This document shows positions 8,583-44,003 of a stretch of DNA of 57,423 nt, in pieces. Both the position numbers and the translations under genes were made by a program. Origin of the DNA: Ilumatobacter coccineus (GTDB lineage Bacteria; Actinomycetota; Acidimicrobiia; Acidimicrobiales; Ilumatobacteraceae); the NCBI GenBank assembly GCA_002748455.1, contig PDSL01000021.1, positions 1 to 57,423 on the forward strand, written 5' to 3'. Below the pieces are notes generated by a model. That model was not told the origin of the DNA, ran no database searches, and worked only from the letters and a program-made list of their open reading frames with translations. Numbering within the stretch: the stretch's first letter is position 1; each line of letters starts with the position of its first letter.

Positions 8583-11500
8583 ATGATCATCAAGCTCAGA
8601 GCCAGCATGCTTACGTTTTCCTCATCACGCGTCGGGTCGCGTCGCCTCCTGATCGCCGCGGCGTTCGCTGTCACCCTGGTCCTTGCCAGCTCCGGCCCAA
8701 TCGTGGCCGACGGCGCTGAATCGGGAACGTCATCGGTGCCACCAACGCCAGAGACTGTTCCGACAACAACGCCCAGTCCATCGGCAACCACGCCCAGCCC
8801 ATCGACAACGCCAACAAGGGTGTCCTCGTCGACGACACCAGCACCGGTTCAGGGATCGACCCCACCGTCGACGCCGCCGACCACCGTGCCGGTTCCGGTA
8901 TCGGCTCCACTCATGATGACCCGAAGTGATCCATCATTCCAGGTTGCCAATCCTGCCCTGGCCTCATCGTGTGCCCTCGACGTGATGATGGTGGTTGACG
9001 AATCTGGCTCGATCCAGGGAAGCGAACGAGGAGAAGTGCAAGACGCGATGTGGGCGGTCTTGAACACCCTCAACAACACTGGCTCCACCCTGGCGATTAC
9101 CTCATTTGCTGGTTCGGCAGATCTGGAAAACAGCTTTGTTGAGGTCAACGATTCAACGATTGCGGTCAGCGGAACACTCGGTAGCTATGTCGACAGTTAC
9201 GACACCGCCGGAGAAACCGACTGGGATGAGGCCCTTCATCTCGCACATTCGGTCTCACCAGCTGATGGGACGACCGATCTGGTGGTCATGATCACCGATA
9301 GCCGTCCCCAGCTCCATGAATCCCATACCCACCTGATGTCGTGTGAGCCGCCGACGGGCTCAGCGTTCACCGATTCGCTCTGTCATGCGGTTGATGAAGC
9401 CGACCATATTCGTTCCCAAGGCACCCATGTGGTTGCACTGGCTATCGGGGGATCGGTCTTGGAAGGTTCGATCGAAGCAGCGTTTGGCCCGGTCCAGTAT
9501 CCAACAGCGGGCCAGCCGTTCTCCCACTCTGACTATGCCATCAGCACGGATTTTGTTGATCTTGAGCCGGTGATCCGTCGAGGTCTGTTCGAACAATGCG
9601 GACCTCAGGTCATCGTCAAAGCCAATGTCGACATGGATGGGGACGGGATCTATGAAACCACCAACGGGTCTCAGGCCAGTGGGTTTGAGTATGAGATGGC
9701 GATGTCGGGTATTGCCCCCGCAGGTAATTCGGTGACCTGGATTCGCCCCACTGCTCCTGCCGACTCAACTCCGGTGAGTCGAGCTACCGATACCACTGGT
9801 GCAACCCAGTTTGAATGGAAGTTCGGGTCCGTGTCTGCGCCCCAAACCGGGTCACTGACCGCGACGGTCGATCCTCGCGCTCGGGCAGGCTATGCCTATC
9901 GAGGTGCTCACTGCACCCTCACCAGGGTTGACGGTTCCGGAGGCGCGTCGGGCACTGAGCTCACGATCAACCCGTCCGATCTGATCAGCCTTGATCTCGA
10001 TCAATCGACCATGGTGACCTGCGATACCTACTATCAGGCCGACACCCTGATCGTGCTCGCCAAGCGATGGGAGAGCTCGGTCGCTGGCACCACTGCGGTA
10101 TTGAACATCTCTCAGCCCGGATTGCCGCTCGCCAGGAATTATCTTGACCGGTTCACCACCGATGGCGTGGGAACCGGCTCCGACGGAAACGTGGCTTGGA
10201 CAACAACCTGGGTGGAGACCGGAGACACGAGTACCAACAGCTTGGCAACGGGCAAGTTCCGTATTGAAGCTGGCGAATTGATGATGAGGGAATGGGATGA
10301 CGATCCCGCCGAGACGGTGACCCGCGAGGTCGACCTGTCGTCATCGATCGGCGATGTGGCCATGACCTTTGATTGGCGAGCCGAAAACACCAGTTCGCCA
10401 GAGTCGGTCGCTGTCACCCTGAATGGGGCCCCGGTCGACATCATGACGTTTTCTTCGGGATCGTCGTCGGGCACCTTCACGTATACGATCCCTGCTGCGG
10501 ATGCGCCTGGCATCACCCAGATCGGGTTCATGCGAGGGGACAGCGGACGATGGCAACGGGGAGAGTTCGTTGCGGTCGACAATGTCCAGCTCTCCTGGAC
10601 CGTTCCACCAGCACCATCGGCAACCACCGATACCTCAACTGCTCCGAGTGCGCCGAGCCTCGACCTCACCGATCCCGATAGCGATCCGGACACGCCTGGC
10701 CTCGTCGATGACGACAACTCGGCCGAGTTGTCCGTCGTGACCGGATCGGTGGTCGAGCTCAGCGAGCTGGTAAGCCACCCTGGGCTGTATGACGCTGGCT
10801 TGACGTGCGATGCCGGGGCACTGACCTATACCCCTGGGGCAACAACCGCTCAGCTTGACACCACCGGCCTCTTTGGTCAGATCGTGACCTGCACCTTTAC
10901 CAATACCGGACGGGCCAGCGACCTCACGATCATCAAAGAGTGGGAGGACGCGGTGCCCGGTGACCGTGCCAGCTTGAGCATCACCCACGCCGATGGCAAC
11001 AGCACCCTCGATGCCGCGGCCCCGAACCAGACTTCCGCGGTCATCAAGGTGATGCCCACAGAGAACATCACGGTGACCGAGTCGTTCGATTCATCCAATG
11101 CTGGCAACTATCAGATCTCCGCGGTGTCGTGCGTGGACGGCACCGGGAGCGAAGTAGGTGTAGCCATCATCACCGGTGGGTCGTCATTTACTTACGCGAT
11201 GCCAAACGCTCTCGAAGACATCACCTGCACGGTGATCAATCGTCGTGATTCAGGCGATGTACCGCCGACAACCGATGTGCCGCCGACAACCGATGTGCCG
11301 CCAACGACCGATGTGCCGCCAACGACGGAAGTGCCGACAGTGCGCTCCGTCGGTGGGGTCTGTCTTGGGGGCATCCCCCATCTCGGGTACTCCGTGACGG
11401 TGCCCGGTTCGGCCCCGACCACGATGACCATGACGATCACCGCTCCCGACGGATCTCAGCTCGTCTTTGCTGATCAGCCCCTGACTGGTCAGATCGCGTG

Positions 11501-11804: not shown

Positions 11805-11930
11805 AGCCACGGGTCTGCTGACACCGATCGTGCCGCTTCGGTGGTGAGAGAGCAAGACCGTTTCGTCAGGCGGACGGGGTGCCAGAGTCGACGTGGACAA
11901 ACGAGACAAGCGCACATCATCCCATCTTGT

Positions 11931-11951
11931 GCCTCAACTTTAGGTTGAGGC
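11931..11951 (+). terminator. Hairpin between giant surface genes 1 and 2
   Basis: GCCTCAAC-tttag-GTTGAGGC perfect 8-bp stem. Confidence 0.45.
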
Positions 11952-12083
11952 TTGATCAGCGCGTTCGTTCTCCGTGCTGGTCAACCACGAAAAACATGGT
12001 GTAGCTCGGCGAATTGTGCGACACTGATTTACTGGCACGTTTGGGGCTTGACCTCCATGTCAAGAAGTATCGATGACGGGATC

Positions 12084-15000
12084 ATGATGACAACTCGACA
12101 TTCCACACTCCTCATCCCTCGCGTGGTGATCTCTGCCCTGGTGATCCTGGCTGCTGTGGCACCATCACCACTGGGCGAGAGTCCGGCATTGGCGGCACCT
12201 GGTGAACCGCCGACAAGCGATCCCAGCTCGTCAATACCGTCAACGACCGTCCCTGCTGAGAACCCCGAAACTACTGAGAACCCCGAAACTACTGAGAACC
12301 CCGAAACTACGTCTCCGACCACGTCCACCGTCGCCCCTTCGTCCTCGGCGCCAGCCACGGTTTCCCCGTCCTCAACCACTCCCGATTCGACACCAGTATC
12401 GAGTGATCCCACACCCTCAACCAGTCCTTCAACGTCAACGGTTCCCGTCACTTCAACCGTGCCGACCACCACCGAGCCACCACTCGATCCGAGCCTGCCT
12501 CCCGAGTGCAGCTATATGAGCCCTGAGGAGTTGCTGGAGAACGACATCGCGTGTGTCCCGCCCCAGCCCCAGACACGAGGGCCGGTCAACCCATCCCAGA
12601 TCGCCAACCCACCGCTTGCGCCATCGTGTGGCATGAACGTCACCCTGGTGGTCGATCACTCGGGTTCGATGGGCGGCCAGGAAGAGGAGATGAAGGAAGC
12701 GCTGACTGCGCTATTGCGGGCGTATCGGAATACCGGATCAAATATGTCCATCGTGGAATTCGGCACGTCTGCATCGGTAGCTACCGGATTTGTTCCCGTG
12801 AACGATGAGACGATCGGTGCTTCAGGGGTCTTGGGCTCGTATGTCAACGGCTACAGCGTGGGCGGTTCAACCAACTGGGATGACGCGTTTCATGTTGCTC
12901 ACGGGATCGGTCAAACCGATCTCATGATCGTCCTCACCGATGGTGAACCAACCGTTCGTTCATACCATAACCATGCGGGCTACTACGCCGAAAACAACTC
13001 CGCGAGTTGGGCACATAGTCAGGCGGCGATCAACGAGACTGAGTTTATTAAGGACAACGGCACCCATATCTTTGCTGTTGGTGTTGGTGGAGCGTCCTAT
13101 GAGACGGAGATTCAACAGATTACTGGCGATGTCAGGTTCCCAGTAGACGGCCAGACCTTCGCCAATTCCGACTACATGATTGAGGGAAATATCTCCCAGC
13201 TTGCTAACGCTGTGCGGGCAGCGGCACACAATCAGTGTGCTCCCGAAGTCAATGTCACCAAGAAGATCGATGCTGATGGCGATGGCGTCTATGAGACGAC
13301 CAGCGGTAGCGCGGTCAGTGGTATCGATTTCACGGCCACGATCTCGAACCCGACACAGACAGTGGATTGGGTACGCCCAGACGCACCGAACAACTCATCT
13401 CCAGAGACGCAGACCACCGACACCAGCGGTTCTACCCAGTTCCAGTGGAAGTTTGGGTCGGTCGCCAATCCGCTGACCGGATCGGCAACGGTGGCATTGG
13501 AAGAAGACGTCCCTCCTGGATATTCCTACCAAGGCGCGGATTGTGAGACCAGCACAGTAGATGCTTCCGGCAACAATACGGTGAACAACACGAGTTTCTC
13601 GCCCACAGATCCGCTGGAGTTTGATGTCAGCACCGGCACCATTGTCAATTGCGATGTCTACAACCGCGCTGAAACGATGGTGGTGTTGGAGAAGAAGTGG
13701 GTAGGTGGCACTCCAGGGCATACCGCCGATTTGGGCATCTCGACATCAAGTGCAGCAGCAACCCACAATTATCTCGATCAGTTCAATACACCGGGGAATG
13801 GGTACGGATCTGATGGCAGTGAGGCCTGGACTGATCCATGGATTGAGACGAATGACGGCTCAAACAGTCTGTCAAACGGGCGGATCCAAATCGTCTCGGG
13901 ATATCTCCAGCTGCTGGATCTCGATAATCTTTCCACGCGGACAATTACCCGAGACGTGGATCTGACTTCATCGGTCGGTGATGTGACCATTACCTTTGAC
14001 TGGAGATCATACGCAAATCAGTCAGCAGAATCGATCTATCTCATCTTGAACGGCGTGCCGGAAACCTTGATTCAGTTCCCACCAAATAGTGGTTCAGGCT
14101 CATTTGTCTACACCATCCCAGCAGCAATCGCTCCAAGTATCACCAATGTGGGCTTTCGGCCCGGACAGTCTGGAGCGTGGGCATGGTACGAATGGGTGAG
14201 GATCGACAATTTCCAGCTCTCGTGGACGACGCCGCCAACATCGGTGGCGACCTCGGATACCTCCACCGCCCCCGATGCGCCAACTGTCGATCTCACCGAT
14301 CCCGATGTCGACCCCACCGATCCAAACATTCTTGATAGTGACAACTCTGCTGAATTGATGGTCACCGCTGGGTCCATTGTCAACCTGAGCGAAGTCGTTA
14401 GCCATCCGGGCCTCTACACCCCCGCCCTGACCTGCGATCAGGGTGGGGTCACCCATATTCCGGGCACGACGACCGGGCAGCTCGATACCACCGGGCTAGC
14501 TGGGGAAACGGTCACCTGCACCTTCACCAATACCCCATCGGGAGCGACCGTTCACCTCGACAAGCGGTGGATGGGCGGGGTGAGCGGTGATGCCGTCACC
14601 CTCGATCTCGATGGCAGCACCCAGGTGATGACATCCACCGGGGCTGCCGATGAAACCCAGGTCGGCCCGATCAGCGCCGTCGCCGCCGGCTCAACGATCA
14701 CCATGTCGGAGACGCCCGCCGGTGGCAATACCGGGACCTATACCTCAACCTTGTCGTGTCCAGGGGCCACCAATACACCTCAACCGGTTGGTGGCCAGCC
14801 GGCAACCTGGACACTTGACGTTGTCGCTGCCGATCAGGGGAGCATGATCACCTGCACCCTGACCAATAGCCGATCCACCGGCCTGGTCACCGTGCATAAG
14901 ACCTGGGTCAATGCGGCCTCAGGAGATAGCGCTGAGCTTCATGTTGATGTCACCGGTGAAACCCCAGCAACATCGACGGTGGCCGGTGATCCCAACCTGG

Positions 15001-18000
15001 ACGACACCGCCAATCAGGCGACAGCAAATATCGGTGTTGGCGATGCGTTCACCATCTCGGAGATCTTGACCGAGACCACCGGGGCATATGACGCGACCTA
15101 TCGGTGTCAGAGCCCTGACGGAACCAATGTGCAAGAAGGAATTGCCGTCCGAACCGGTAGTACCGCCACCAGTGGAACCCTCACCATGCCCGATACCAAC
15201 GGGTTGGACTGCGCCATCACCAATACTCGTCGCTCAGTCAATTTCTTCGTAGAAAAGCAATGGGCCGATGCTGTTGTCGGCGATTCGACAGCGGTGACGA
15301 CGACCGCGACCTTGCAGACCGAGGGGCCGAACCCGAGTATCGCTGATACCCCTGACGACAACGATGATGTCGCCTCGATGGTGCTCCTCGTCGGCGAAAC
15401 CGGAGTAACGATCTCCGAAACCCTGGCCACCACCAATACTGCCGCCTATGTATCCACCTTGAGTTGCCCCGGGGTAGACAATGTGACCTGGGATTCCGTC
15501 ACCAGGTCGGGAAGCTTTGACGTTCCCCAAGATCTCACCAGTGACGTGACCTGCACCTTGACCAACACTGCCCAGCGCGGCACCATCGTGGTCAACAAAC
15601 TTGTCGAGGGCGCTGACGGAACGTTCGGCTTCACCGGAGACTGGCTGACACCAGCCGGCTTCGACCTCACCACCACATCCGGGTCCGGGACGGTGACCTT
15701 CACCGACGTGATCGTTCCCGCCGATCCGAACAGCCGGTACACCTTGGTCGAAGCTGACCCCACCGCGTCGTATGACGGGACGGTCCTGTCGTGCAGCTCA
15801 GACCAAGCCGGCAACACCACCACGACCGACCTGGCCATGCTGACGGCCAGTATCGAGCTCCGGGCCGGAGAAACGGTGACGTGCACCTATACCAATACCG
15901 AGCGTTCAGCGATCAGGATCGTCAAGGATGCCCAGCCCGATGATGACCAAGACTTTGGGTTCTCGATGTCTGGCGATGCCACGGCAACCTTCACCCTCGA
16001 TGACGATCCCGGATCGGTCACGCCCCCCGACACCTGGACATCCCCCCTGCTTCCGGCGAACTCGCCCTCAGCATCGCACTCCTACACGATCACTGAGACC
16101 GCGGTCGCCGGATGGACGATCGATCCTGCGGCCTCAAGTTGCAGTAGTGGTGATGGCACGGTCAATCCTGATGGCACCATCACCGTCCAGCCCTCCCCAG
16201 GAACGGTGACCACCTGCACCGTGGTCAATACCGCTGCCGAGTCGGAAGCGATCCTGTCGAAAGCGGTTGCCAATGTCGATGCAACCTATGGGTGGGGTCC
16301 GTTTAGGGTGAGGATCCTCGACGCTGGCGGGAACACGGTTGGGAGCCCAGTCGATATCTCGGGAACGGGAGCGAGCACGGTGACCTCACCGACCACGATC
16401 GGTGGCTTGCAGCTCAATGAGACCTATACCGTTATCGAAGACAACCCTGGTGCCGGATGGGCCACCCCGCTCTATACGTGTAGCGATGGCACCTCAACAC
16501 TGACCGATCTCGATGCGGCAACTCCTGGATTCCAGTTCGAGGTGACCGAGCCGGCGATGCAGATCGCATGCACGGCGACAAATACAGCCTCGGATGGTTC
16601 GATCGAGGTGTCGAAGTCGGTTCAAAATCACGCCGGTGATTGGTCGTTCGACTTCGCCCTGGCTGATACTGATCCAGCGACAGCCGATATCGAGTTCACC
16701 CTCGATCAGGGCACCACCAGCTATCAGAATGCCCAGCTTCTGCCGGGTGAAACCTATACCTTGACCGAGACGGTGCCGCCGGGATGGACTTCAGCGACGA
16801 CCTGCACATTGACCCCGGCCGGTGGTGTAGGCGCTCCGTCGACTGGTCCGTGGACGATCCAACCCGGTGATGTGATCAGTTGTTCGGTGGTTAACACCCG
16901 CGATGAAATACCGGTTGAAGTTGCCAAGACCTGGGCTGACCCCGCCTCGACCGATGACGCGACCTTGACAGCAACGGGCGATGAGTCGCTGGGAACGATC
17001 AATTACACGGTGTATGACGGCAATGATGGTGTTTCGGGAACCACCTCGTTCTGGTCGGGGGAGACCATCAATCTGGTCGAAACCTTGCCGAGCGGGAATG
17101 CCGCCGACTACACCACCTCATTGGAGTGTCGGGCGGCAACCGCTACCGCTGTGGGCGATCCGGTGGGAACCCTCACCACGACCGCTGGCAACCTGACCGG
17201 CGCGCTGACGCTGCCAGCAACCCTGCCCGCCGGCTACGACCGGGTGCGGTGCACCTGGACCAATACTCGCGATACCCATGGGGTGTCGGTGGTGAAGCGG
17301 TGGACTGTCGCGTTGGCTGGCGAACAGGCCAATCTGTCGGTGAACGCTGGCGGTCAGAGTGACACGGCGACATCGACCGCTGATGGAACTGCTGACTTCA
17401 CCGATAGTGCCAACACGGCGTCCTTGAGTGTTGGCGGTGGTGACACGGTGAACTTCTCCGAGACCCTGCCGGGGGCGAACGTGTCGTCGTATACGACATC
17501 GTGGGTGTGTTCATCGAGTGGCTGGACTGATGATGTCACCGGTACCGGCACCGCTGGGAGCTTTACCATGCCGGCAGCTGAGGATGTTGACTGCGTGATC
17601 ACCAATACAGCGGTGACGGCGACCTTGCATGTTGACAAGGTATGGATCAACGCCGTTGCTGGAGATACTGCATCGGTCTCGTTCGGCCCCTCTCATTTCT
17701 TTGGGGCTGTCACCCTCGCTACCGCTGACGGTGACAATGTTCCGGCACCGGGCGAGCTGGATGACAATGTTGGGGTTCTTCAGGTCGTGTCGGGGGAGAC
17801 CGGTATGTCGGTGTCTGAGTCCCTTGGTGTCGGGAATACCGCGGTCTATGACCAGGTGTTGTCGTGTGTTGGGGTGGACAATTTTGATGCTGTTGCGGGC
17901 ACGTTTGATATTCCCCAGAACCCCACAGATGAGCCTCGGTGTACGTTCACCAATACGGCTCAGCGGGGCACGATTGTGATCAGTAAGACCGTTGATGGTG

Positions 18001-28061: not shown

Positions 28062-28062
28062 G

Positions 28063-28095
28063 TGTGGGGGATGGGGGCAAGGCCCTCCCCCCACA
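28063..28095 (+). terminator. Terminator-like hairpin directly after giant surface gene 2
   Basis: TGTGGGGG...CCCTCCCCCCACA, imperfect stem starting 2 nt after the stop codon. Confidence 0.55.
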
Positions 28096-31700: not shown

Positions 31701-34700
31701 CTGGCCACACTGACGGCGAGTATTCAGGTGCGTGACGGTGAGACGGTGACGTGTACCTATACCAACACCGAGCGAGCGGTGATCAAGATCATCAAGGACG
31801 CTCGACCCGACGATGCTCAAGACTTCAGCTTCACCATGAGCGGTGATGCAGCTGCAAGTTTCACCCTGGATGATGATCCAGCATCGGCCACGCCAAACGA
31901 ATGGACCTCGCCACGGTTGGCGGCCAATCGCGCCGGTTCGCCCCATACCTACACGATTACTGAAACAGCGGTGGCTGGCTGGACGATCGATACCGCAGCT
32001 TCGCGTTGCGATAGCAGTGATGGCACGGTCAACGCGAACGGCACGATCACGGTGACGCCGTCACCGGGAACGATGACGACCTGCACCGTGGTCAACAAGG
32101 CCGCCGAATCTGGAGTCAGTGTCGCCAAGTCGGTCACCGGCGTCGCCGCAGACTACGCCTGGGGTCCGTTCACGGTGAAGATCGTCGACTCCAACGGTGT
32201 CACGGTGGGTAGTCCGGTCGATCTTTCGGGGACCGGCCCGACCACGGTGACGTCGCCAACGACGATCACCGGGTTGCAGCTCAACCAGATCTATACCTTC
32301 ATCGAGGACCCGCCAACGAATGGCTGGACCAATAGTGGTCTGGCGTGCTCGACAGCGACCTCGGTGCTGACCGATCTCGATCCTGCAGCTCCAGGCTTCC
32401 AGTTCGAGGTCACTGACCCCGACATGAGTTTTGTCTGCACGGCAGCCAATGAGTCGTCAGATGGGTCGATCAAGGTCACCAAGACAGTGAGAAACCACAC
32501 CGGTGATTGGTCATTCGACTTCACCCTGGCCGATGATGATCCAGCGACGGCCGATCAGGTGTTCACGCTTGATCAGGACAACACCGGCTACGAGTTTTCT
32601 CAGCTGGAGACCGGCGCTGAATACACCTTGACCGAGACCGTTCCTGACGGATGGACCTCGGCCATGTGGTGCACGGTCACATCGGCTGATGGGTCGTCGG
32701 CATCGTCGACCGGTCCGTGGACCATCCAACCAGGCGATCGGATCAGGTGCTGTGTCCGAAACACGCGGAATCTGATCCCCGTTGCGGTGGCGAAGCATTG
32801 GAACGATCCGGCCTCGACTGACGATGCCACCCTGACCGCATCAGGCGCTGAGTCGGCTGCAAATATCGACTTCAGCGTGTATGACGGTCACGATGGGACA
32901 TCGGGAACCACCATGTTCTGGTCTGGCGAGACGGTCAGCTTGGCTGAAACCTTCCCCGCTGGGAATGTGGCGGCCTACGGCACATCATTGGAGTGCCGGG
33001 CAGCAACGAGTACCAGTGTGGGCGACCCTGTCGGCGTGCTGTCGTTCACCGCTGGTGCGTTGACCGGCGAACTCGCCCTTCCAGCGACTCTGCCTGATGG
33101 CTACGACCATGTGCTGTGTACGTGGACCAATACACGGGACCTCAATACGGTCTCGCTGACCAAGCGCTGGATCGATGCGCCACAAGGTGACCAGGCCGAT
33201 ATCGAGTTGAGTATCGATGCCAGCAACACCCACTCCACGACCTCAACAGCTGATGGAACACCGGTATTCGTCGACACCGGCCACGCGGTGTCCACCCTTG
33301 TTGGTGGTGGTGACACGATCAGCCTGTCCGAAGAGCTGAACGCCGACAATTCCGCGTCCTACACCACGACATGGTCGTGTTCGTCACCTGGGTGGCCCGC
33401 TGACGTCACCGGCACGGGAACGTCAGGCCAATTCGTGATGCCGGCATCTGACGCAGTGTCGTGTGTGATCACCAATACCGCGGTGACCACCACGCTCCAT
33501 ATCGACAAGGTATGGGTCAATGCGGTCGCTGGCGACACCGCCGACATCACGGTGAGTGGGACCAAGCGGCCGGTTGCGCCGGCAACAGCTACAGCCGATG
33601 CTGACAATGTGGCGGCGCCGGGTGAAACCGATCCGGACGTGTTGACCATCACGGTGACCTCTGGTGAGGCAGACATCTCGGTCAGCGAAGTCATCAACTC
33701 CACCACAGCGACCTACACCCAGGTCTTGTCGTGTACTGGGGTTGACGATCTCGATCCTGATGCTGGCACCTTCACCATCCCCACCAACCCGACGGTCGAG
33801 CCACGCTGCACCCTCACCAATACAGCTCAGCGAGGCACCATCATCATCAACAAGCTTGTCGATGGGGCTGGTGGAGACTTCACCTTTGATGGTGATTGGG
33901 CTGACTCAAGCGGCAACGCAGTGGGCCAGTTCGTCTTGTCCCCACCAGATGCTGGTACTGACACCGAGATGTGGACCGATGTACTTGTCGGCTCGTATCA
34001 GGTGGTTGAAACCGACGCTCCAGACTATGACCAAACCTTGAACTGTTCCGAGATGGGACGCGGTGTCGATCATGGTTCATGGACATCAGGGATGACTGGA
34101 CATATCGACCTGGATGACGGTGAAACCGTCACGTGTACCTATACCAATACCGAGAGGGCAGCTCTCATCGTGATCGAGGACAGCCAACCCGATGACGATC
34201 AGGTCTTCGACTACACGTTGCAGTCGTTGCTCGAGCGTTCGACATATAGCGCTCGAAGCTTGTTCATCACGTTTAGCCTGGTTGATCAGCCGGCGAGTCC
34301 TCCGACAAACACGTGGTCGACAACCTTGTCACCCCACATCAAGTACCGCCTGATTCAGAACTATGTCCCCAACTGGGATCTCACCAGTGTCGGCTGTGAT
34401 GCTCCAACTCAGGTGGTGCAAGACGCCACGAGTCAGGGCATCGACATCAGGCCCGATGCCGGGCAGACGATTACCTGCCTCTTTGTCAACAAGGCTGGTG
34501 AGAGTGGATTGACGGTGACCAAGTCGGTGGAGAACGTCACCCCCGATCTCGAGTGGTCATTCAAGCTCGCGCTCACACCTGATCCATCGGGATCGTCGCC
34601 GGTGACGGTGTCCGGTGTGGGCGAGAGCAGCACCACGGTTGGGTTTGGCAATCTTGTGCTCAACCAGCAGTACACCATCGAGGAAGTCCCCATGCCGGGA

Positions 34701-35732
34701 TGGTCGGCGTCCGAGATGACATGCGCCTATCTGAACGAGCCTCTGAGTGACGAAGATCCACTGGTCGACGGGTATCAGTTCACCATTGCTGAACCGTCAT
34801 CGGTGGTGACCTGTGAACTGACCAATACTGCTGATCCTGGTGAGGTCGAGGTGACCAAGAAGGTCGTCGCTGGGGATGATCAGTCTTGGCAGTTCAGCTT
34901 CACCATTGACCCGGTACCGGCTGGCGCTGATGCCACTCAGACGATCACTGGCACTGGCGCCTCGACCGAGGTAGTCCGATGGGCGGGGCTGATGCCTGGT
35001 GTGAACTACACGATTACCGAGGCTGACGCTGGCACCCGATGGGTGTCCGATGGCCAAGGATGTGTCGTCATCGCTGATGACGGCAGTGCGGCTCCCTTGG
35101 TCGATGATGCTGGTGACGGGTTTGCTGTTACCCCCGGAGCCCACATTGCCTGTGACTTCACCAATACCGCCCGAGGTGATCTGAGCGTCGCCAAGTCGGT
35201 GGCTGGGGTGACCGATCTTGGTGGGGGCAAGGTCCGGATCGTCTACACCCTTGTCGTCACGAGCGATTCCGACATGGACGAGCCGTATGTCGTGGATGAC
35301 ACCTTGCACTTTGGCGCTGGCATCTCGGTCGTGGCAGCGTCGGTCACGTCAAGCGACGCGGTGGTGAATCCGAATTGGAACGGGGTCACCGATACCGCGG
35401 TCACCGACGCCGTCCAGGCGCTTCCTCCGAATGGCACCCACACCTTCACCGTTACGGTTGAAGCGCTGATCACGACGGGGTCGAGCGCAGAGAGTCGCAA
35501 CTGTGTGTTGTCGACCGGTGAAACCGGGACGGGCCTGCTCAACAGTGCTCGGGTGATCTATGACAATGGGGTTGGCGAAGACGATGCCTGTGGGACTCCG
35601 CCGCCGCCAAAGGTGCCTCACTTGCCGAGGACGGGAGCCAATACGGTTCCGTTCACGGGGCTTGGATTCGCTGCCATCCTGGCCGGTGGATTCATGCTGC
35701 TTCTCTCGCGCCGTCGCCGTCAGGAGGTATAA
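28755..35732 (+). CDS. Giant surface protein 3: signal peptide, PT linker, VWA, CnaB-like stalk, DUF11-like domain, LPRTG anchor (2325 aa)
   Basis: SSRVLFSALVITASVVPAPFG signal; LPRECGSMTPAELELNDISC; VDESGSMEG; TNWDDAL; ITDGNPN; C-terminal HLPRTGANTVPFTGLGFAAILAGGFMLLLSRRRRQEV. Confidence 0.9.
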   Translation: MTAHSSVAAITRFSSRVLFSALVITASVVPAPFGGGLVGADPGDPLPDQGNEADPPPTSLVDEAVSTTVLETTPTSTLPEEAVISSTTAPVSTVPEPVDTTIPVTVPDSTLPPTSVALPSAPATTLPPTTVPPTTLPPLDPRLPRECGSMTPAELELNDISCELPALGLRQASRMPAISNPELEPSCAIDVVLIVDESGSMEGKETEVRNALNAILDGFNNTGTTMAIVGFSSSAHVEVGYTTVDDVSTGSGGVLANYVSGYGTGGWTNWDDALHKAHGLSPADGTTELTLIITDGNPNRYEDHTHSGYSGYPSGTAIGEAVNEANFIKDQGTHMFAVGVGNQISETNIRKITGNARFPGSSTFGASDYMIETDFSQLESSLRAAVYAQCAPQVIINKRLDLDGDGTYETDTGSEVSGFEFTGTTSNATATVDWTRPDVPNDTSPVSGTTDNSGSVQFEWRFGSEANPQPGSLTMSVVEGPRAGYTYHGAECTTKKLLSDGSIELTTDQFSSSEAMSFAVSQSSIVTCEAYNRAQTVVVLEKEWVDSVTGDSALLTIAESTTSSSDTSIAPDAPSVDLTDPDVDPTDPTMLDPDNSAELVVATGASVTLSEALSATSLYDRVLTCDQGSLDYVAGETTGILDTTGLAGETVTCTFTNSGRSAQIDLKKHWVNGVNGDTFTLNLDGNTQGVTSTGAADETQNGPSASALPGDTIVISETASGTNAVDYTSTLACDGATNTPQPVVGQAGKWMLEIATTDAGQHIECTLTNTREPIQVTLRKAWVNGIENDTAALTITGAASTPPGGSTSTVPVGQPNYVDTTNVVTAEVAAGGQLVLKEVLGSSNTGRYEVDSFTCIDEQGNPIPDDQYAHAAGARVAKVRPTGPASNITCTFTNTSQRGKIVVNKLVEGADGTFSFTGAWQSPANFDITTTGGAGSATFDGVVVPADPDSRYTLVEADPTPGYDGTVLTCSSDQPYNQTTTDLATLTASIQVRDGETVTCTYTNTERAVIKIIKDARPDDAQDFSFTMSGDAAASFTLDDDPASATPNEWTSPRLAANRAGSPHTYTITETAVAGWTIDTAASRCDSSDGTVNANGTITVTPSPGTMTTCTVVNKAAESGVSVAKSVTGVAADYAWGPFTVKIVDSNGVTVGSPVDLSGTGPTTVTSPTTITGLQLNQIYTFIEDPPTNGWTNSGLACSTATSVLTDLDPAAPGFQFEVTDPDMSFVCTAANESSDGSIKVTKTVRNHTGDWSFDFTLADDDPATADQVFTLDQDNTGYEFSQLETGAEYTLTETVPDGWTSAMWCTVTSADGSSASSTGPWTIQPGDRIRCCVRNTRNLIPVAVAKHWNDPASTDDATLTASGAESAANIDFSVYDGHDGTSGTTMFWSGETVSLAETFPAGNVAAYGTSLECRAATSTSVGDPVGVLSFTAGALTGELALPATLPDGYDHVLCTWTNTRDLNTVSLTKRWIDAPQGDQADIELSIDASNTHSTTSTADGTPVFVDTGHAVSTLVGGGDTISLSEELNADNSASYTTTWSCSSPGWPADVTGTGTSGQFVMPASDAVSCVITNTAVTTTLHIDKVWVNAVAGDTADITVSGTKRPVAPATATADADNVAAPGETDPDVLTITVTSGEADISVSEVINSTTATYTQVLSCTGVDDLDPDAGTFTIPTNPTVEPRCTLTNTAQRGTIIINKLVDGAGGDFTFDGDWADSSGNAVGQFVLSPPDAGTDTEMWTDVLVGSYQVVETDAPDYDQTLNCSEMGRGVDHGSWTSGMTGHIDLDDGETVTCTYTNTERAALIVIEDSQPDDDQVFDYTLQSLLERSTYSARSLFITFSLVDQPASPPTNTWSTTLSPHIKYRLIQNYVPNWDLTSVGCDAPTQVVQDATSQGIDIRPDAGQTITCLFVNKAGESGLTVTKSVENVTPDLEWSFKLALTPDPSGSSPVTVSGVGESSTTVGFGNLVLNQQYTIEEVPMPGWSASEMTCAYLNEPLSDEDPLVDGYQFTIAEPSSVVTCELTNTADPGEVEVTKKVVAGDDQSWQFSFTIDPVPAGADATQTITGTGASTEVVRWAGLMPGVNYTITEADAGTRWVSDGQGCVVIADDGSAAPLVDDAGDGFAVTPGAHIACDFTNTARGDLSVAKSVAGVTDLGGGKVRIVYTLVVTSDSDMDEPYVVDDTLHFGAGISVVAASVTSSDAVVNPNWNGVTDTAVTDAVQALPPNGTHTFTVTVEALITTGSSAESRNCVLSTGETGTGLLNSARVIYDNGVGEDDACGTPPPPKVPHLPRTGANTVPFTGLGFAAILAGGFMLLLSRRRRQEV

Positions 35733-35792
35733 ACCCATCGACGATGCTGCCGAATAGTCAGTTCCCAATCACCCAATTGACAACTGAGGAGT

Positions 35793-35833
35793 GAGTTGGG
35801 GAGGTGATGACACTGGCATCACCTCCCCAACTC
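35793..35833 (+). terminator. Strong hairpin terminator after giant surface gene 3
   Basis: GAGTTGGGGAGGTGATG-acactgg-CATCACCTCCCCAACTC, perfect 17-bp stem with 7-nt loop, followed by a short T-rich stretch (tttgg). Confidence 0.75.
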
Positions 35834-36107
35834 TTTGGCCTGATCAGTTGGTGCTGATTTCGCGAGTCGTTGGCCCAAGAGGTGTCTGATCGTCCGGTGA
35901 TGACCGGTTGTCGGGGGCGGAGCGTGCTTGAGAGGTGCGCACTGACGTGAAAGATGACTGCCAGTTGGATCGCATACGTCGAAGCTAGGTACGTCAAATA
36001 AACCGCAAATAATTGACTGCGGGCTGCAATTGCTCTGGTCGATGGTGCCAAACTAGGGAATCGGCGCATCAGCGCCAGTAGTTCCACACGACCACATTGG
36101 GACCACC

Positions 36108-39100
36108 ATGACCACGCTATTCCCCAGTTCCTTCTCTCTGCGCAGCTCTTGGCGCGTCCTTGTCGCGTCATCGGTACTCGCAGCAAGCATTGTTGTGTCG
36201 CCATTGGATACTCGCACCGCGGGAGCTGATCCTGGCGATCACAGCGACCTGAGTGAATCACCGGTGCCTCCGACCACAGTGCCTGAGCAGGATCCGGTTG
36301 ATGTTCCAACGACAACACTGTCGGCATCCACGATCCCCGAGCCAACAGTTCCAGACACTTCGGCTCCGGTGGCAACAAGTGTCCCGGATTCTACGGTGCC
36401 AAGGACGACCCTTCCTGAGACAACGGTGCCGCTGAACATGGCGGCGGCGGAGACCGTTCCTGAGACAACGGTGCCGCTGAACATGGCGGCGGCGGAGACC
36501 GTTCCTGAAACAACGGTGCCGGTTCCGGCTCCAGGGATGCCCCGTGAGTGTTCCTATATGACTCCCGAGGAGTTGGAGCACCATGACATTCTGTGTGAAC
36601 CGCTTAGGGCAGCGATGCGGAGCTCGGTCAACCCATCGGAAATTGACAATCCCCCGCTTGCTCCGTCATGCGCGATCGATGTGGTTTTGATCGTCGATGA
36701 GTCGGGATCGATGCGCGGGAACCAAGACAATGTGCGAAACGCACTTCGAGCCATTCTCGACAGCTTTAACAACACGGGGTCGAATATGGCCATCGTGCGA
36801 TTTGATTCGTACGCTCACCAGGTGAGCGGTTTCGTGCCAGTCGATGACTCGACCACCGCCGCAACCGGTGTGCTTGGCAGCTACATCGATGACTATGAAG
36901 TGCGCAACATGACGAACTGGGATGATGCTTTGCATGCTGCGCATACGATTTCACCCCCACCTGCCGACGGTGCTGTCGAGTTGACGATGATTATCACTGA
37001 CGGCAATCCCAACGCGCGTGAGAACCACAATCATCCGGGATATAACGCGGTTACTCCGGTCGGTCGGGCGATCAATGAGGCTGACCACATCAAGGGCCTC
37101 GGTAGCCACATGTTTGCTGTTGGTGTGGGCAATAACATCAGTGAGACCAATCTCCAGCGGATCACTGGCGACGTGAGGTTCCCCACAGCCGGCCAGACGT
37201 TTGGCAATTCCGACTACATGATCGAGCCCAACTTCGATGACCTTGAGACTTCGTTGCGCGCCGCTGTCTACGCTCAGTGCGCGCCTGAGGTGATCATCAA
37301 GAAGCGGGTCGATCTTGACGGTGACGGCACCTACGAAACGTCCAGTGGCAACCAGGTCAGCGGGTTTGAGTTCATCGGCACGATCTCTGGTGCAACAGAA
37401 AATGTTGATTGGACTCGCCCCGACGTTGCGGACAACACCTCGCCGGTCAGTGTCACCACCGGAACCTCGGGTTCAGCTCATTTTGAGTGGCGGTTTGGCT
37501 CGGAAGTCGACCCTCAACCTGGTTCGCTCACCATGGATGTGGTTGAAACACAGCGTCCCGGCTACACCTATCAGGGAGCTGAATGCACCATCAAAAACCT
37601 CATGCCCGACGGGAACCTTGACACCACAGTTGAATCGTTTGCTGCATCTGAGTCAGTCAGCTTTCTCGTTGAGCAGGGCACGATCGTCACCTGTGACTTC
37701 AACAACCGGGCCGAGACGGTCGTCGTGTTGCAAAAAGAGTGGGTTGATTCGATGGCCGGTGACACCGCTGTGTTAGCTATTGCCGAGTCAGGCGGGTTGA
37801 TGTCGTCGGATACGTCGACTGCTCCCGACGCTCCGAGTGTTGACTTGGGTGATCCCGATGCCGATCCGACCGATCTTGATCCTGACAACTCGGCTGAGTT
37901 GGTGGTGGCGACGGGGGCGTCGGTCACCTTGAGTGAAGCCTTGAGCGCAACAAGTCTGTATGACCGGGTGTTGACATGCGACAAGGGGTCGTTGGACTAC
38001 ACCGATGGGGAGACAACCGGGACGCTTGACACCAGCGGTCTGGGTGGTGAGACGGTTACCTGCACGTTCACCAACACACGTACCTCAGCCAGCTTGGACG
38101 TGGTTAAGGCGTGGGATAACGCCGTTGGTGGGGACCAGGCGACCCTGGTGGCCAACTACTCCAATGGGTCTACGAACCTGGATGTCACCGCACCCAACCA
38201 GGCATCGATGACCCTTGAGATCCTGTCGGGTGAGACGGTCACGGTGACCGAGCTGTTCAACTCTGCCAATGTCGGCAATTACGACATCTCCACGGTGTCG
38301 TGCGTTGATGATGCAGGAGACCCGGTCGGCACGGTGAATGTCACCAGCGGATCGTCGTTCACGTATCAGGTCCCCGCGGTCATCGCCAACGCGACATGCA
38401 CGGTGACCAATCGTCGTGACTCTGGCCCAGTCACGTTGCACAAAGCATGGGAGAATGCAGCGTCCGGCGATGCGGCTGAGCTCCACATCGATGTCGTTGG
38501 CGAGACATCGGCCAGCTCGACCGTGGCCGGTGATCCCAACCTGGATGACACCGCCAACCAGGCAACTGCCGACGTAAACGTTGGCGATTCGTTCACGATC
38601 TACGAAGACGTGACCGAAACAACCGGTGCCTATGGTACGACCTATCGTTGTGCGAGCCCCGATGGCACCAATGTGCAAGAAGGAGCTGTCACGCGTGTCG
38701 GTGATCGCGTGACCAGCGGCACTCTGACGATGCCTGATACCAAGGGGCTGGAGTGTGTGTTCACCAATAGTCGCCGGTCGGTGAGATTGAAGGTTGATAA
38801 GGAGTGGGTTGGCGCAGCGCTGGACGACACCGCGGCGATCACAGCGAGCGGTGAATCAGGGATTGCTGGTCCGAAGGTCTCGGTTGCTGATTCAGCAAAC
38901 GAGACCGACAGCGTTGTGGTGGCCTTGACGGTGTTTGCTGGCGAGACCGGGGTGAGTGTGGCCGAGACACTTGGAGCAGCGAACGCTGCGGCGTATTCGA
39001 CGACCTTGAGCTGTCCGGGGGTGGACAATCTGGTGTGGAGCGCGGCCGACCTGGAGGGAACCTTTGATATTCCCAAGGATGTCACCGATGATCTGACGTG

Positions 39101-42100
39101 TACCTTGATCAATACCGCTCAGCGGGGCACGATCGTGATCAAAAAGACCGTTGTTGGCAGCGGTGGCGATTTCACCTTCGATTCGGATTGGAACGATTCC
39201 GGTGGTGCTGTGGTGAGTCAGTTTGTGCTGTCACCTGGTGATGACAGCACCGTGAGCCAGACCTGGACCGATGTGCTGGCCGGTTCCTATGAGGTCAGCG
39301 AAAGAGTCAGTGCAGCCTATGGCCAGACGGTGACCTGTTCCGAATCCGGAGCAACCGTTGATCACGGTTCATCTGCTGCGGGCTTGACCGGTTCGATCGA
39401 TCTTGATCCTGGCGAGACGGTCACCTGTACCTACACCAATGTTGAGCAGGCGCATATCGTCGTGGTGAAAGACGCCCAGCCCAATAGCGGTCAAGCTTTC
39501 GACTACTCGCTGAGCGGTGGGGACCTGAATGAAACCTTCAGCCTGGTCGATGACAGCGCGGTGCCAGCGACCAATACCTGGCAGGCAACAGTGTCGCCAG
39601 GGGTGGCATACACCCTGGTTGAAGAGCTCGTGGACGATTGGGATCTCGACAGCGTGACCTGCACGAACGGTGTCGCAACGACACCGGTGCAGCAGGCCGA
39701 TGCCGAAGGTGTGAGCTTTACTCCGACTCCTGGTCAAACGGTGGTCTGCACCTTTGTGAACAAGGCCGTCGGATCTGGGCTCTCCGTGACCAAGAAGGTG
39801 GCCGATGTGGCTGCTGACTATGACTGGAGTTTTGAGATCTCGTTGACACCCGATCCGTCGGGTGCATCGCCGGTGAATGTCTCGGGCACTGGGCCGGGCA
39901 GTGATGCAGCGACCTTTGGCGGATTGGTGCTGAATCAGCAGTACACGATCGCTGAGGTTGATCCCGGTGATGGCTGGTCGGCATCGGAGATGATGTGTAC
40001 CGCTGAAGGTGCCGCTCACGCCGACGAAGATCCCATCGCCGACGGTTATCAGATCACGATCACCCAACCGGCGATGAGGATCGAGTGCGAACTCACCAAC
40101 CAGGCATCGGATGGGTCGATCAAGGTCACCAAGTCGGTGAAGAACCACAGTGGTGATTGGTCGTTCGACTTCACCCTGTCCGATGATGATGCAGCGACAG
40201 CTGATCAGACATTCACGCTCGATCAGGACAACACGGTGTATGAGTTTGATCGATTGGTGTCAGGTGAGTCATACACCTTGACCGAGACGGTTCCTGATGG
40301 GTGGTCGTCATCGATGACCTGCACGGTGACCTCGGCTGGAGGTGGCGTCACCACCTCGGCGGGTCCGTGGACGATCGAGCCGGGTGACTCGATCGAGTGT
40401 GATGTGGTCAATGAGCGTAAGACCGCAACGATGACGGTTGCCAAGGTGTGGCTGAACGCGGCTCATGGTGATGGTGCGACTCTGACGGCGGTGTCGGAGA
40501 CGGGGACACATACGTATCTTGATTCGTCGCCGGCAGGTGCGGCGGATTCGATGAGTTTTGTGGTGCGAGCTGGTGAGACGGTGTCGTTGTCCGAAGTGTT
40601 GCCTGGTTCGAACGCGGGGTCGTATGCGGCGACAGCGTTGACCTGTGTCGGCGATACCGGCACCTTGACGTGGACGTTGGGTGAGTTGGAAGCTGACTAT
40701 GAAGTCACCGATGATCCCCAAGACATCACCTGCACCTGGACCAACACCCGGAACATGTTCCCGGTTGCGCTGGCCAAGACCTGGAATGATCCAGCATCAA
40801 CCGATGATGTAACCCTGACAGCAGTGGGAGCTGAGTCGGCTGTGGGGATCGACCTCAGTGTCTATGACGGCACTAACGCAGTATCAGGAACCACCGAATT
40901 CTGGGCTGGTGAGACGATCGATCTCGTCGAGACCTTGGCTGCGGGGAATCTAGCCAACTACACCACATCCTTGGAGTGCCGGGCTGCGAGCGGTGCCACC
41001 ATCGGCGATCCGATCGGCGTGTTGTCATATGTCCCTGGTGAACTCACCGGCAAGTTGGCTCTGCCGAAGGAACTGCCCACCGGCTATGACCGTGTGGTGT
41101 GCACCTGGACCAATGTTCGCGATGTCAACCAGGCGAGCTTGACCAAGCGGTGGGTTGGTGCTCTGGCCGGGGACCAGGTTGATCTCTCGCTGAGTACCGA
41201 TGGTCACAGCGCGACATCGAGCTCAGCTGCTGATGGAAATGCTGAGTTCATCGACACTGCCCACACCGCATCATTGAGTGTTGGCGGTGGTGAGACGGTG
41301 AGCTTTGGCGAAACCGTGGACCCCAATAATGCAGCGTCCTACACCACCACCTGGGAGTGTTCGTCGGACGCGTGGCCAGCTCCGATCACCGGAACGGGGT
41401 TGACCGGTGATGTGGTGATGCCTGCATCAGCGTCGGTCGCCTGTGTGATCACCAATACTGCGACGACCACGACCTTGCATGTCGACAAGGTATGGATCAA
41501 CGCTGTGGCTGGTGACACCGCCAAGATCACCGTGGATGGCACCAAGGTGGCAGTTGGTCCAGCGACTGCCACTGCCGATAGCGACAATCTTGCAGCGCCA
41601 GGTGAAACCGACACCGATGTGGTGACGGTGGCGATCACCTCGGGCGAAACCGGCATCGCGGTCAGCGAAACGGTGAATTCGGCCGCAGCAATCTATGACC
41701 AGGTGTTGTCGTGCACTGGAGTTGACAATTTTGATTCAGCGACAGGCACCTTCGACATTCCCAAGAATCCCACGACTGAACCTCGGTGCACCCTGACCAA
41801 TACGGCCCAGCGCGGCACGATCGTGGTGGTCAAGACCGTTGATGGCGCTGGCGGAGACTTCACGTTCGATTCGGATTGGAACGATTCCAGCGGCACCGCA
41901 GTGGATCAGTTTGTGCTCTCGCCGCCCGATGCTGGCACCGTCAACCAGACCTGGACCGATGTGTTGGTTGGACAGTATTCGGTGAGTGAGCTGACCAACG
42001 CGGCCTATGACCAGACGGTGACCTGCTCCGAATCCGGAGCGACCGTTGATCATGGTTCATCGGTATCCGGGGTGACCGGGTCGATCGATCTTGATCCTGG

Positions 42101-44003
42101 TGAAACGGTGACGTGTGCATACACCAATACCGAGCGGGCAACACTGGTGGTGATCAAGGATGCCCAGCCTGATGATGGTCAGGCGTTTGAGTATTCCTTG
42201 ACCGGTGGAACGGTAAACGAAACCTTCAGCCTGACCGATGATGGTGTAGCACCGGTGACCAATACGTGGTCGACCACGGTGTCTCCTGATCTGGAGTACA
42301 CCCTGGTCGAGGGCTTGACAGCGCACTGGACACTCGAGTCGGTGTCGTGCGACTCCTCGACCACACCGGTACAAGAGATCGGTGCTGAGGGCATCAGCCT
42401 TACCCCCGATGCTGGTCAGACGGTCACGTGTACCTTTGTCAATGACGCTGATGAGTCGGAGCTGAAGGTGACGAAGTCGGTGGCCCATGTGGCTGCTGAC
42501 TATGGCTGGAGTTTCGAGATCTCGTTAACGCCTGATCCGTCGGGTGCATCTCCGGTGACTGTCTCGGGCACTGGGCCGAGTAGCGACACAGCGACCTTCG
42601 GCGGATTGGTGCTCAATCAGGAGTACACGATCGCTGAAGTTGATCCCGGTGATGGCTGGTCGGCATCGGAGATGATGTGCACCGTTCAGGGCGCCGCTCA
42701 CGCCGATGAAGATCCAACGCTGGATGGGTATCAGATCACCATCGCTGAAGCGGCTTCCACGATTGAGTGTGAGCTGACCAATACCGCTACATCGGGTCAG
42801 TTGGAACTCACCAAGTCGGTGGTCGATGTGGCCGATGATCTTGACTGGTCATTCGCGTTCGAATGGGCGATTGGTGATCCGGTGACGTCGACGGCAGCGT
42901 TCAGTGTGGACAAGGCTCAACCGACCCACACGGTGACAGATCTGTTGCCTGGTGAGACCTACACCTTGAGTGAGGTGGTCCCCGCGGGATGGACCGTTGA
43001 TATGGCCTGCACGGTGACCTCAGCTGATGGGATGACAGCAACCTCGTCTGGGCCGTGGACGATCCAACCGGGCGACTCGATCGATTGCGATGTCACCAAT
43101 ACGGCTGATCTCGGAGCGGTCACGGTCACCAAGTCGGTGGTCGGCGACAATCAGCAGCCGTGGGAGTTCAGCTTCACGATCGATCCCGCCCCTGTCGGCG
43201 GTGAAGCCACCCAGACGATCAGTGGCACCGGTCCCGCGACCGAAGAGATCCGGTGGAACGGTCTTGTTCCCGGTGTGGAGTACACGATCAGCGAGGCTGA
43301 TGCCGGGACCCGGTGGGTGTCAACCGATGAGGGATGTGTGGTCGTGCCGGTTGACGGTGGAGCTCCACGGTCGATCGATCAGGCTGGTGACGGGTTTATC
43401 GTTGCTCCTGGTGACCGAATCGACTGTGGGTTCACCAATACAGCTCGCGGTGATGTGGCCGTCGACAAGTCGGTGGCCCAGGTGGCCACGCTGAGTGACG
43501 GCAAGGTCAAGATTGTCTACACGATCGTTGTCACTAACAACTCGACGTTTAGCGAGCCGTATGAGCTCGGTGACACCCTGCAGTTTGGTGCTGGGATCAT
43601 GGTGACCTCGGCCCAGGCCACCTCCACCGATGCCGCGGTCAATCCAACGTGGGATGGGGTTGGCAACACTCAGGTGACTGCCGGCGAACAGGTGCTTGCA
43701 CCTGGTGCCGCCCATACCTTCACGGTTGTGGTCGAAGCGGTCGTCGCGGCGACCTCTACTGCTGAGAGCCGCAACTGTGTCGTGTCGGTTGGCGAAACCG
43801 GGACTGGTCTGTTGAACAGTGCCCAGGTCGCCTATGACAACGGCTCCACGAGCGACGACGCTTGTGGTGAGTCGCCACCTCCGCCTCGTGTCTTGCCAAG
43901 AACTGGGTCGGAGACCGCGCCCCTTCTCGGGATCGGCCTAGCCGCCATGCTGGCCGGTTGGTTCTTGATCCTGATCTCTCGTCGTCGCCGTCGAGAGGCT
44001 TGA
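36108..44003 (+). CDS. Giant surface protein 4: same architecture (2631 aa)
   Basis: SWRVLVASSVLAASIVVSPL signal; MPRECSYMTPEELEHHDILC; VDESGSMRG; TNWDDAL; ITDGNPN; C-terminal VLPRTGSETAPLLGIGLAAMLAGWFLILISRRRRREA. Confidence 0.9.
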   Translation: MTTLFPSSFSLRSSWRVLVASSVLAASIVVSPLDTRTAGADPGDHSDLSESPVPPTTVPEQDPVDVPTTTLSASTIPEPTVPDTSAPVATSVPDSTVPRTTLPETTVPLNMAAAETVPETTVPLNMAAAETVPETTVPVPAPGMPRECSYMTPEELEHHDILCEPLRAAMRSSVNPSEIDNPPLAPSCAIDVVLIVDESGSMRGNQDNVRNALRAILDSFNNTGSNMAIVRFDSYAHQVSGFVPVDDSTTAATGVLGSYIDDYEVRNMTNWDDALHAAHTISPPPADGAVELTMIITDGNPNARENHNHPGYNAVTPVGRAINEADHIKGLGSHMFAVGVGNNISETNLQRITGDVRFPTAGQTFGNSDYMIEPNFDDLETSLRAAVYAQCAPEVIIKKRVDLDGDGTYETSSGNQVSGFEFIGTISGATENVDWTRPDVADNTSPVSVTTGTSGSAHFEWRFGSEVDPQPGSLTMDVVETQRPGYTYQGAECTIKNLMPDGNLDTTVESFAASESVSFLVEQGTIVTCDFNNRAETVVVLQKEWVDSMAGDTAVLAIAESGGLMSSDTSTAPDAPSVDLGDPDADPTDLDPDNSAELVVATGASVTLSEALSATSLYDRVLTCDKGSLDYTDGETTGTLDTSGLGGETVTCTFTNTRTSASLDVVKAWDNAVGGDQATLVANYSNGSTNLDVTAPNQASMTLEILSGETVTVTELFNSANVGNYDISTVSCVDDAGDPVGTVNVTSGSSFTYQVPAVIANATCTVTNRRDSGPVTLHKAWENAASGDAAELHIDVVGETSASSTVAGDPNLDDTANQATADVNVGDSFTIYEDVTETTGAYGTTYRCASPDGTNVQEGAVTRVGDRVTSGTLTMPDTKGLECVFTNSRRSVRLKVDKEWVGAALDDTAAITASGESGIAGPKVSVADSANETDSVVVALTVFAGETGVSVAETLGAANAAAYSTTLSCPGVDNLVWSAADLEGTFDIPKDVTDDLTCTLINTAQRGTIVIKKTVVGSGGDFTFDSDWNDSGGAVVSQFVLSPGDDSTVSQTWTDVLAGSYEVSERVSAAYGQTVTCSESGATVDHGSSAAGLTGSIDLDPGETVTCTYTNVEQAHIVVVKDAQPNSGQAFDYSLSGGDLNETFSLVDDSAVPATNTWQATVSPGVAYTLVEELVDDWDLDSVTCTNGVATTPVQQADAEGVSFTPTPGQTVVCTFVNKAVGSGLSVTKKVADVAADYDWSFEISLTPDPSGASPVNVSGTGPGSDAATFGGLVLNQQYTIAEVDPGDGWSASEMMCTAEGAAHADEDPIADGYQITITQPAMRIECELTNQASDGSIKVTKSVKNHSGDWSFDFTLSDDDAATADQTFTLDQDNTVYEFDRLVSGESYTLTETVPDGWSSSMTCTVTSAGGGVTTSAGPWTIEPGDSIECDVVNERKTATMTVAKVWLNAAHGDGATLTAVSETGTHTYLDSSPAGAADSMSFVVRAGETVSLSEVLPGSNAGSYAATALTCVGDTGTLTWTLGELEADYEVTDDPQDITCTWTNTRNMFPVALAKTWNDPASTDDVTLTAVGAESAVGIDLSVYDGTNAVSGTTEFWAGETIDLVETLAAGNLANYTTSLECRAASGATIGDPIGVLSYVPGELTGKLALPKELPTGYDRVVCTWTNVRDVNQASLTKRWVGALAGDQVDLSLSTDGHSATSSSAADGNAEFIDTAHTASLSVGGGETVSFGETVDPNNAASYTTTWECSSDAWPAPITGTGLTGDVVMPASASVACVITNTATTTTLHVDKVWINAVAGDTAKITVDGTKVAVGPATATADSDNLAAPGETDTDVVTVAITSGETGIAVSETVNSAAAIYDQVLSCTGVDNFDSATGTFDIPKNPTTEPRCTLTNTAQRGTIVVVKTVDGAGGDFTFDSDWNDSSGTAVDQFVLSPPDAGTVNQTWTDVLVGQYSVSELTNAAYDQTVTCSESGATVDHGSSVSGVTGSIDLDPGETVTCAYTNTERATLVVIKDAQPDDGQAFEYSLTGGTVNETFSLTDDGVAPVTNTWSTTVSPDLEYTLVEGLTAHWTLESVSCDSSTTPVQEIGAEGISLTPDAGQTVTCTFVNDADESELKVTKSVAHVAADYGWSFEISLTPDPSGASPVTVSGTGPSSDTATFGGLVLNQEYTIAEVDPGDGWSASEMMCTVQGAAHADEDPTLDGYQITIAEAASTIECELTNTATSGQLELTKSVVDVADDLDWSFAFEWAIGDPVTSTAAFSVDKAQPTHTVTDLLPGETYTLSEVVPAGWTVDMACTVTSADGMTATSSGPWTIQPGDSIDCDVTNTADLGAVTVTKSVVGDNQQPWEFSFTIDPAPVGGEATQTISGTGPATEEIRWNGLVPGVEYTISEADAGTRWVSTDEGCVVVPVDGGAPRSIDQAGDGFIVAPGDRIDCGFTNTARGDVAVDKSVAQVATLSDGKVKIVYTIVVTNNSTFSEPYELGDTLQFGAGIMVTSAQATSTDAAVNPTWDGVGNTQVTAGEQVLAPGAAHTFTVVVEAVVAATSTAESRNCVVSVGETGTGLLNSAQVAYDNGSTSDDACGESPPPPRVLPRTGSETAPLLGIGLAAMLAGWFLILISRRRRREA
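36417..36521 (+). repeat. 45-bp tandem repeat (2.3 copies) encoding ETTVPLNMAAAETVP
   Basis: gagacaacggtgccgctgaacatggcggcggcggagaccgttcct repeated identically twice, then a partial copy. Confidence 0.95.

Follow-up and report, generated by a model that had tools for sequence, protein, structure and literature searches.

In Actinobacteria, many fibrillar adhesins have an N-terminal adhesive domain and a C-terminal sortase anchor (PMC8286594), and those built from VWA and SpaA domains hold the adhesive domain on a stalk of transthyretin-clan repeats that leads to an LPxTG motif (PMC8286594, PMC9210967). Some single-chain adhesins reach an extreme size, such as the LPxTG protein of Mobiluncus mulieris with 7651 aa and 51 cross-linked Ig-like domains, in which ester-bond and isopeptide domains are combined with a thioester (PMC10619420). 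In periscope proteins such as Sgo_0707, the number of repeats sets the length of the stalk, and adjacent repeats share at least about 80% identity (PMC8201768). CnaB domains with isopeptide and disulfide bonds are also found in the Actinomyces FimP and Corynebacterium SpaA pilins, which have few domains and are polymerised (PMC3485203). A global survey of isopeptide domains catalogues SpaA_4 as a family with a Lys/Glu/Asn triad, and finds disulfides to be prevalent in SpaA_2 to SpaA_4 domains and common in Actinomycetota (PMC12617251). A literature search for such adhesins in Ilumatobacter or Acidimicrobiia returned nothing relevant.

Here we describe four genes within a 57,423-nucleotide stretch of Ilumatobacter coccineus DNA (hereafter the window) whose best explanation, with a probability of about 0.83, is that they encode sortase-anchored fibrillar adhesins with isopeptide stalks, gene 2 being intact in the organism. 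Such proteins would be of a known kind, albeit in an unusually elaborate form. Their N-terminal head, transthyretin-clan stalk and C-terminal anchor follow the published architecture of VWA/SpaA adhesins (PMC8286594, PMC9210967), as the initial annotation had proposed in reading them as long fibrillar adhesins. They depart from it in that four lie in tandem, one has about 43 units, the units follow an ordered grammar and two proteins have an extra domain. With the Mobiluncus protein they share the single giant actinobacterial chain, the LPxTG-type anchor, predicted isopeptide and disulfide cross-links and a comparable scale, whereas here the units look like isopeptide CnaB domains and the head is a VWA domain. 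A simple search of the four proteins found no thioester-type motif. Like FimP and SpaA, they have CnaB domains with both kinds of bond (predicted here), but they are single chains without a pilin motif. What sets this locus apart is the tandem arrangement, the module grammar and an apparent assembly scar of exactly k-mer length.

Architecture of the island

An ORF listing and the translations bear out the earlier claim of four co-directional genes at 8583-44003, all on the plus strand and together occupying about 35 kb:

8583..11804, + strand: gene 1, short-stalked VWA adhesin; 1073 aa, ~3 CnaB-type units, LPRTG at 11694
12084..28061, + strand: gene 2, giant VWA adhesin; ~43 units, LPRTG at 27945
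28755..35732, + strand: gene 3, VWA adhesin; 2325 aa, ~15 units, LPRTG at 35622
36108..44003, + strand: gene 4, VWA adhesin; 2631 aa, ~18 units, LPRTG at 43893

All four proteins have the same order of parts, namely a signal-like hydrophobic segment, a T/P/S-rich linker, a VWA match, a stalk of units ending in C-x-x-x-N, LPRTG, a second hydrophobic segment and RRRR. The shared architecture described in the initial annotation therefore stands, except that its long stalk holds for three of the four proteins, gene 1 having only 3 units. Over the island there are about 79 units (3, 43, 15 and 18). The roughly 42 unit ends previously counted by hand in gene 2 come close to our 43, a tally that takes in six damaged units, but the gene is not uninterrupted in the given sequence. 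Its listed TTG start at 11952 is probably too early, and an ATG at 12084 or 12087 fits the starts of genes 3 and 4. Pfam E-values in the island reach 1.7e-78 (SpaA_4), which excludes chance.

VWA heads and the extra domain

Near the N-terminus of every protein there is a Pfam VWA match, as in fibrillar adhesins with an adhesive domain at this position:

8979..9452, + strand: VWA domain, gene 1; Pfam VWA_2 E 5.4e-07, VWA 4.2e-05; MIDAS residues
12636..13178, + strand: VWA domain, gene 2; Pfam VWA E 2.4e-08; MIDAS residues
29322..29864, + strand: VWA domain, gene 3; Pfam VWA E 2.7e-14; MIDAS residues
36678..37202, + strand: VWA domain, gene 4; Pfam VWA E 8.4e-12; MIDAS residues

All four heads keep every MIDAS residue (DxSxS, T and D). 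The VWA fold supposed in the initial annotation thus has the backing of profile matches, strongest in genes 3 and 4, and of an intact motif, but not of structure prediction, because the head model (pLDDT 48.3) is unreliable and too poor for a structure search. A search of PDB sequences with the head returned three matches in all, each of them distant; they include inter-alpha-trypsin inhibitor H4 and a chloride-channel regulator. A scan of genome contigs brought up distant VWA relatives only, from Binatia, Bacillota and Coriobacteria. The CnaB unit that follows the head of gene 1 (9603-10115) has a tyrosine in place of the bond-forming asparagine and may for this reason be unlocked.

Genes 1 and 2 have an additional domain close to the head:

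10134..10610, + strand: extra domain of ~159 aa, gene 1, within the second CnaB unit after the head
13764..14237, + strand: extra domain of 158 aa, gene 2, within the second CnaB unit after the head

The two copies are 53% identical to each other and are inserted between the Lys and Glu strands of their host unit. Neither Pfam nor a PDB sequence search with the inserted-domain profile gave a significant match. Weak relatives occur in two VWA proteins of the same genus, where the domain lies on the N-terminal side of the VWA domain, so it seems to have moved. It may form a second binding surface beside the head in these two proteins.

Fold and cross-link residues of the stalk

Stalks were cut into units at C-x-x-x-N, giving lengths of mostly 104-125 residues, and residues were counted in an alignment of 65 complete units. 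The isopeptide lysine of the first strand and the catalytic glutamate are each present in 64 of the 65 units, the first cysteine is present in all, and exactly two cysteines are found in 64. The final asparagine (65/65) and the second cysteine are likewise found throughout, although their 100% is partly circular because both served to cut the units, whereas the counts for Lys, Glu and the first Cys are independent. In seven units of types E and O (defined below) the aligner had gapped the lysine, which was read by eye from the rows. One type-E unit of gene 3 (34149-34493) has lost two residues of the triad together, Lys being replaced by Glu and the catalytic Glu by Gln.

SpaA_4 and SpaA_3 of Pfam score above the cut-off in genes 2-4. 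For gene 1, SpaA_3 reaches 18.8 bits, below the cut-off, while a search of the genome with SpaA_4 puts one unit (10989-11246) over the cut-off of that family and three units match a local unit profile. The fold was modelled with AlphaFold (AF2) for part of the gene 4 stalk:

41457..42446, + strand: three-unit stretch (types K, D, E), gene 4; structure prediction, mean pLDDT 92.7

The best Foldseek matches of this model are the isopeptide-bonded pilins PitA, T-antigen and SpaC together with Cna B1B2, the lowest E-value being 9e-12. TM-scores over the whole chain stay low (about 0.2-0.4), which is what differing inter-domain angles would produce. Stalk profiles gave nothing significant against PDB sequences. 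Pfam, the AlphaFold model and Foldseek agree on a CnaB-like stalk, the fold that had been proposed from the letters and whose absence the initial annotation had named as grounds for refutation, and within this predicted fold lies the Lys-Glu-Asn triad of SpaA_4-type isopeptide domains. Because this triad and the two cysteines are kept in nearly all units, each unit is probably locked by a predicted isopeptide bond and one disulfide.

Unit grammar and growth of the stalks

Clustering by identity yields about 19 unit types, with a mean identity of 0.46-0.77 within types and 0.30 between them. The types follow a shared order across the genes. After two head-proximal units, the order is M S N O P G I J K D E F L in gene 3 and A B C D E F G H I J K D E F G L in gene 4. 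That of gene 2 is given here, with (t) marking truncated units:

13248..27494, + strand: gene 2 stalk; after two head-proximal units, M B C N O P G I J K D E F(t) G H J(t) K D E(t) F G H Q R H J(t) K D E F(t) G H Q R K D E(t) F G G L
27495..27930, + strand: C-terminal wall-proximal domain, gene 2, without a significant Pfam match

Compared with genes 3 and 4, gene 2 has similar ends and additional rounds of the series (J) K D E F G H; Q R comes after two of these rounds. Identity between units is high at lags of 7, 8 and 10, which suggests that gene 2 was lengthened by the copying of 7-10-unit blocks. At the DNA level, most block copies within gene 2 share about 85-95% identity, compared with about 72-79% between genes, which makes the expansion look more recent than the duplications of the genes.

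As in periscope proteins, the number of units would set stalk length and some units are highly similar in DNA. However, the neighbours in Sgo_0707 are 82-100% identical (PMC8201768), whereas adjacent units in the island stalks have mean identities of 0.28-0.35, just one pair, in gene 2, being as high as 0.75, and near-identical units lie 7-10 apart. We considered selection for dissimilar neighbours and dropped the idea, as shuffling the units gives neighbours that are no less dissimilar (P = 0.32).

Wall anchor, sortase and disulfide machinery

LPRTG, a hydrophobic segment and RRRR close all four proteins as a predicted wall anchor. Pfam recognises Gram_pos_anchor in genes 2 and 3, and NCBIfam recognises LPXTG_anchor in genes 2-4. 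No sortase was found among the scanned proteins of the window; two sortase-like genes lie on other contigs. One sortase of this genome, the best that was found, has the catalytic motif TLTSC, is nearest to class E, at 4 bits under the class E cut-off, and is far below the cut-off for class C. Since this sortase is on another contig of a bin that is 74% complete, its pairing with the adhesins is putative. A sortase-like lipoprotein without the catalytic cysteine (L087:8686-9324) adjoins an apparent apolipoprotein N-acyltransferase gene. Elsewhere, a VKOR domain is fused to an N-terminal thioredoxin-like part with CPHC (L088:613-1896). This fusion is likely to be a disulfide-forming enzyme and is consistent with disulfide formation outside the membrane.

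Surroundings and relatives

To the left of the island are genes for a DEAD helicase, aconitase, a beta-lactamase-fold protein, GreA, LeuB and IlvE. To the right are genes for an ABC transporter ATPase, a probable permease, a nucleoside hydrolase, a CimA/LeuA-like protein, glutamate dehydrogenase and GltX. In relatives, ilvE is succeeded within a few kb (30 and 324 bp in the two closest cases) by cimA itself or by the nucleoside hydrolase gene and cimA in turn; the exceptions are G009, where cimA is about 9 kb away, and G001, where it falls outside the stretch fetched. There is no VWA match between ilvE and cimA in the relatives fetched, and the island is thus specific to this lineage among the relatives looked at. 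The ATPase and permease genes directly downstream of the island (44147-46755) likewise have no match at the junction in the relatives fetched; the one exception is G001, with a weak match to the ATPase at a distance of about 10 kb. Scans for promoters and terminators gave no useful signal.

Relatives possess VWA/CnaB adhesins of their own, but at the ilvE-cimA junction they lack this island. SpaA_4 matches occur in 18 of 61 genomes, with 42 matches in this genome and 16 in the next highest. The VWA head has matches in 14 of the 61, this genome included, those in the others being 27-41% identical. Nearest in overall build is a protein of another genome (G007:C62) with a VWA domain, 13 units and LPLTG.

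Gene 2 breaks coincide with 99-bp repeats

In the given sequence, gene 2 is spread over three ORFs (11952-19691, 19661-26143 and 26043-28061, in frames 0, 2 and 0). Two frame breaks, at 19612/19613 and 26052/26053, are accompanied by four units that are truncated in frame. Each of the six joints falls at the end of a maximal exact repeat that is exactly 99 bp long, and these repeats form three pairs:

18585..18683, + strand: 99-bp exact repeat, copy at 23741-23839; ends at truncation joint 18683/18684
19514..19612, + strand: 99-bp exact repeat, copy at 22636-22734; ends at frame break 19612/19613, 106 nt missing relative to an intact copy
20311..20409, + strand: 99-bp exact repeat, copy at 25954-26052; ends at truncation joint 20409/20410
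22636..22734, + strand: second copy of a 99-bp repeat; ends at in-frame truncation 22734/22735, 159 nt missing
23741..23839, + strand: second copy of a 99-bp repeat; ends at in-frame truncation 23839/23840, 87 nt missing
25954..26052, + strand: second copy of a 99-bp repeat; ends at frame break 26052/26053, ~155 nt missing

The island has no exact repeat longer than 99 bp. Because every joint ends such a repeat and none is longer, the joints look like an artefact of assembly at k=99 that mimics frameshifts. Judging from how de Bruijn assemblers work, two paths would have merged in a shared k=99 node and each been joined onward with the shared segment dropped. We conclude indirectly that the gene is probably intact in the organism as one open reading frame, with a length of at least 16 kb, and that its unit number is a lower bound.

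Alternative explanations

The breaks are, after all, present in the given sequence, and repeat-rich adhesin genes gain and lose units through recombination (PMC8201768), so that real deletions might have left gene 2 as a pseudogene or as a gene switched by recombination, its head now separated from its anchor. We consider this quite unlikely. Besides the exact coincidence with 99-bp repeat ends, each left end is used twice and continues into different right sides, with no microhomology evident at any of the six joints. Moreover, the two frame-shifting losses (106 and ~155 nt) sum to a multiple of three and cancel, and so the first and third pieces share a frame; the remaining units are intact and have conserved triads, unlike those of a decaying gene. 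Programmed frameshifting, like true decay, was judged less likely than an assembly origin given the 99-bp coincidence.

Other explanations concern what an intact set of proteins would do. The stalk units have a pilin fold, and VWA tip pilins with CnaB domains exist (RrgA and SpaC), which could mean that the four proteins are subunits of a pilus, linked end to end by a class C sortase, and not single-chain fibres. This is very improbable: the YPK pilin motif is absent from all four proteins, the window offers no sortase among its scanned proteins and the genome's best is class E-like, and one chain already holds up to about 43 units. Polymerised pili were dropped on the absence of a pilin motif and of a local class C sortase. 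Somewhat less remote, although still unlikely, is a head that is not adhesive and acts, for example, in self-recognition, in predation or in the docking of enzymes, the stalk being a spacer. VWA domains have many roles, any ligand of these heads is putative, and the domain inserted in genes 1 and 2 matches no known family. Against this, a VWA, Collagen_bind or TED domain on a SpaA stalk has been reported for many fibrillar adhesins of Actinobacteria (PMC8286594). Sortase-anchored adhesion by single-chain fibres remains our preferred reading.

Proposed mechanism and implications

As fibrillar adhesins, the proteins would be exported, folded outside the membrane and joined to the wall by a sortase acting on LPRTG. 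A metal-dependent VWA head would then be held off the cell by a rod of CnaB-type units, each closed by an isopeptide bond between Lys and Asn, with the conserved Glu as catalyst, and by one disulfide, so that the rod would resist pulling and proteolysis. The four stalks (~3, 43, 15 and 18 units) would place their heads at different distances from the wall. The genes would have arisen through tandem duplication, with gene 2 lengthened later.

The locus also provides a clear example of how short-read assembly can split a giant gene full of repeats at points set precisely by the k-mer length, such that an intact adhesin can be mistaken for a pseudogene. For the organism itself, an uncultured environmental actinobacterium, it means that a small draft genome (1.25 Mb, 74% complete) devotes about 35 kb to surface fibres that are probably covalently cross-linked. 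We also raise the idea, doubtful as it is at present, that stalk length in this lineage changes through the gain or loss of whole blocks of 7-10 units whose neighbours are dissimilar, in contrast with the near-identical neighbours of known periscope proteins. If true, length variation driven by recombination would be possible while neighbouring domains stay too different to misfold together.
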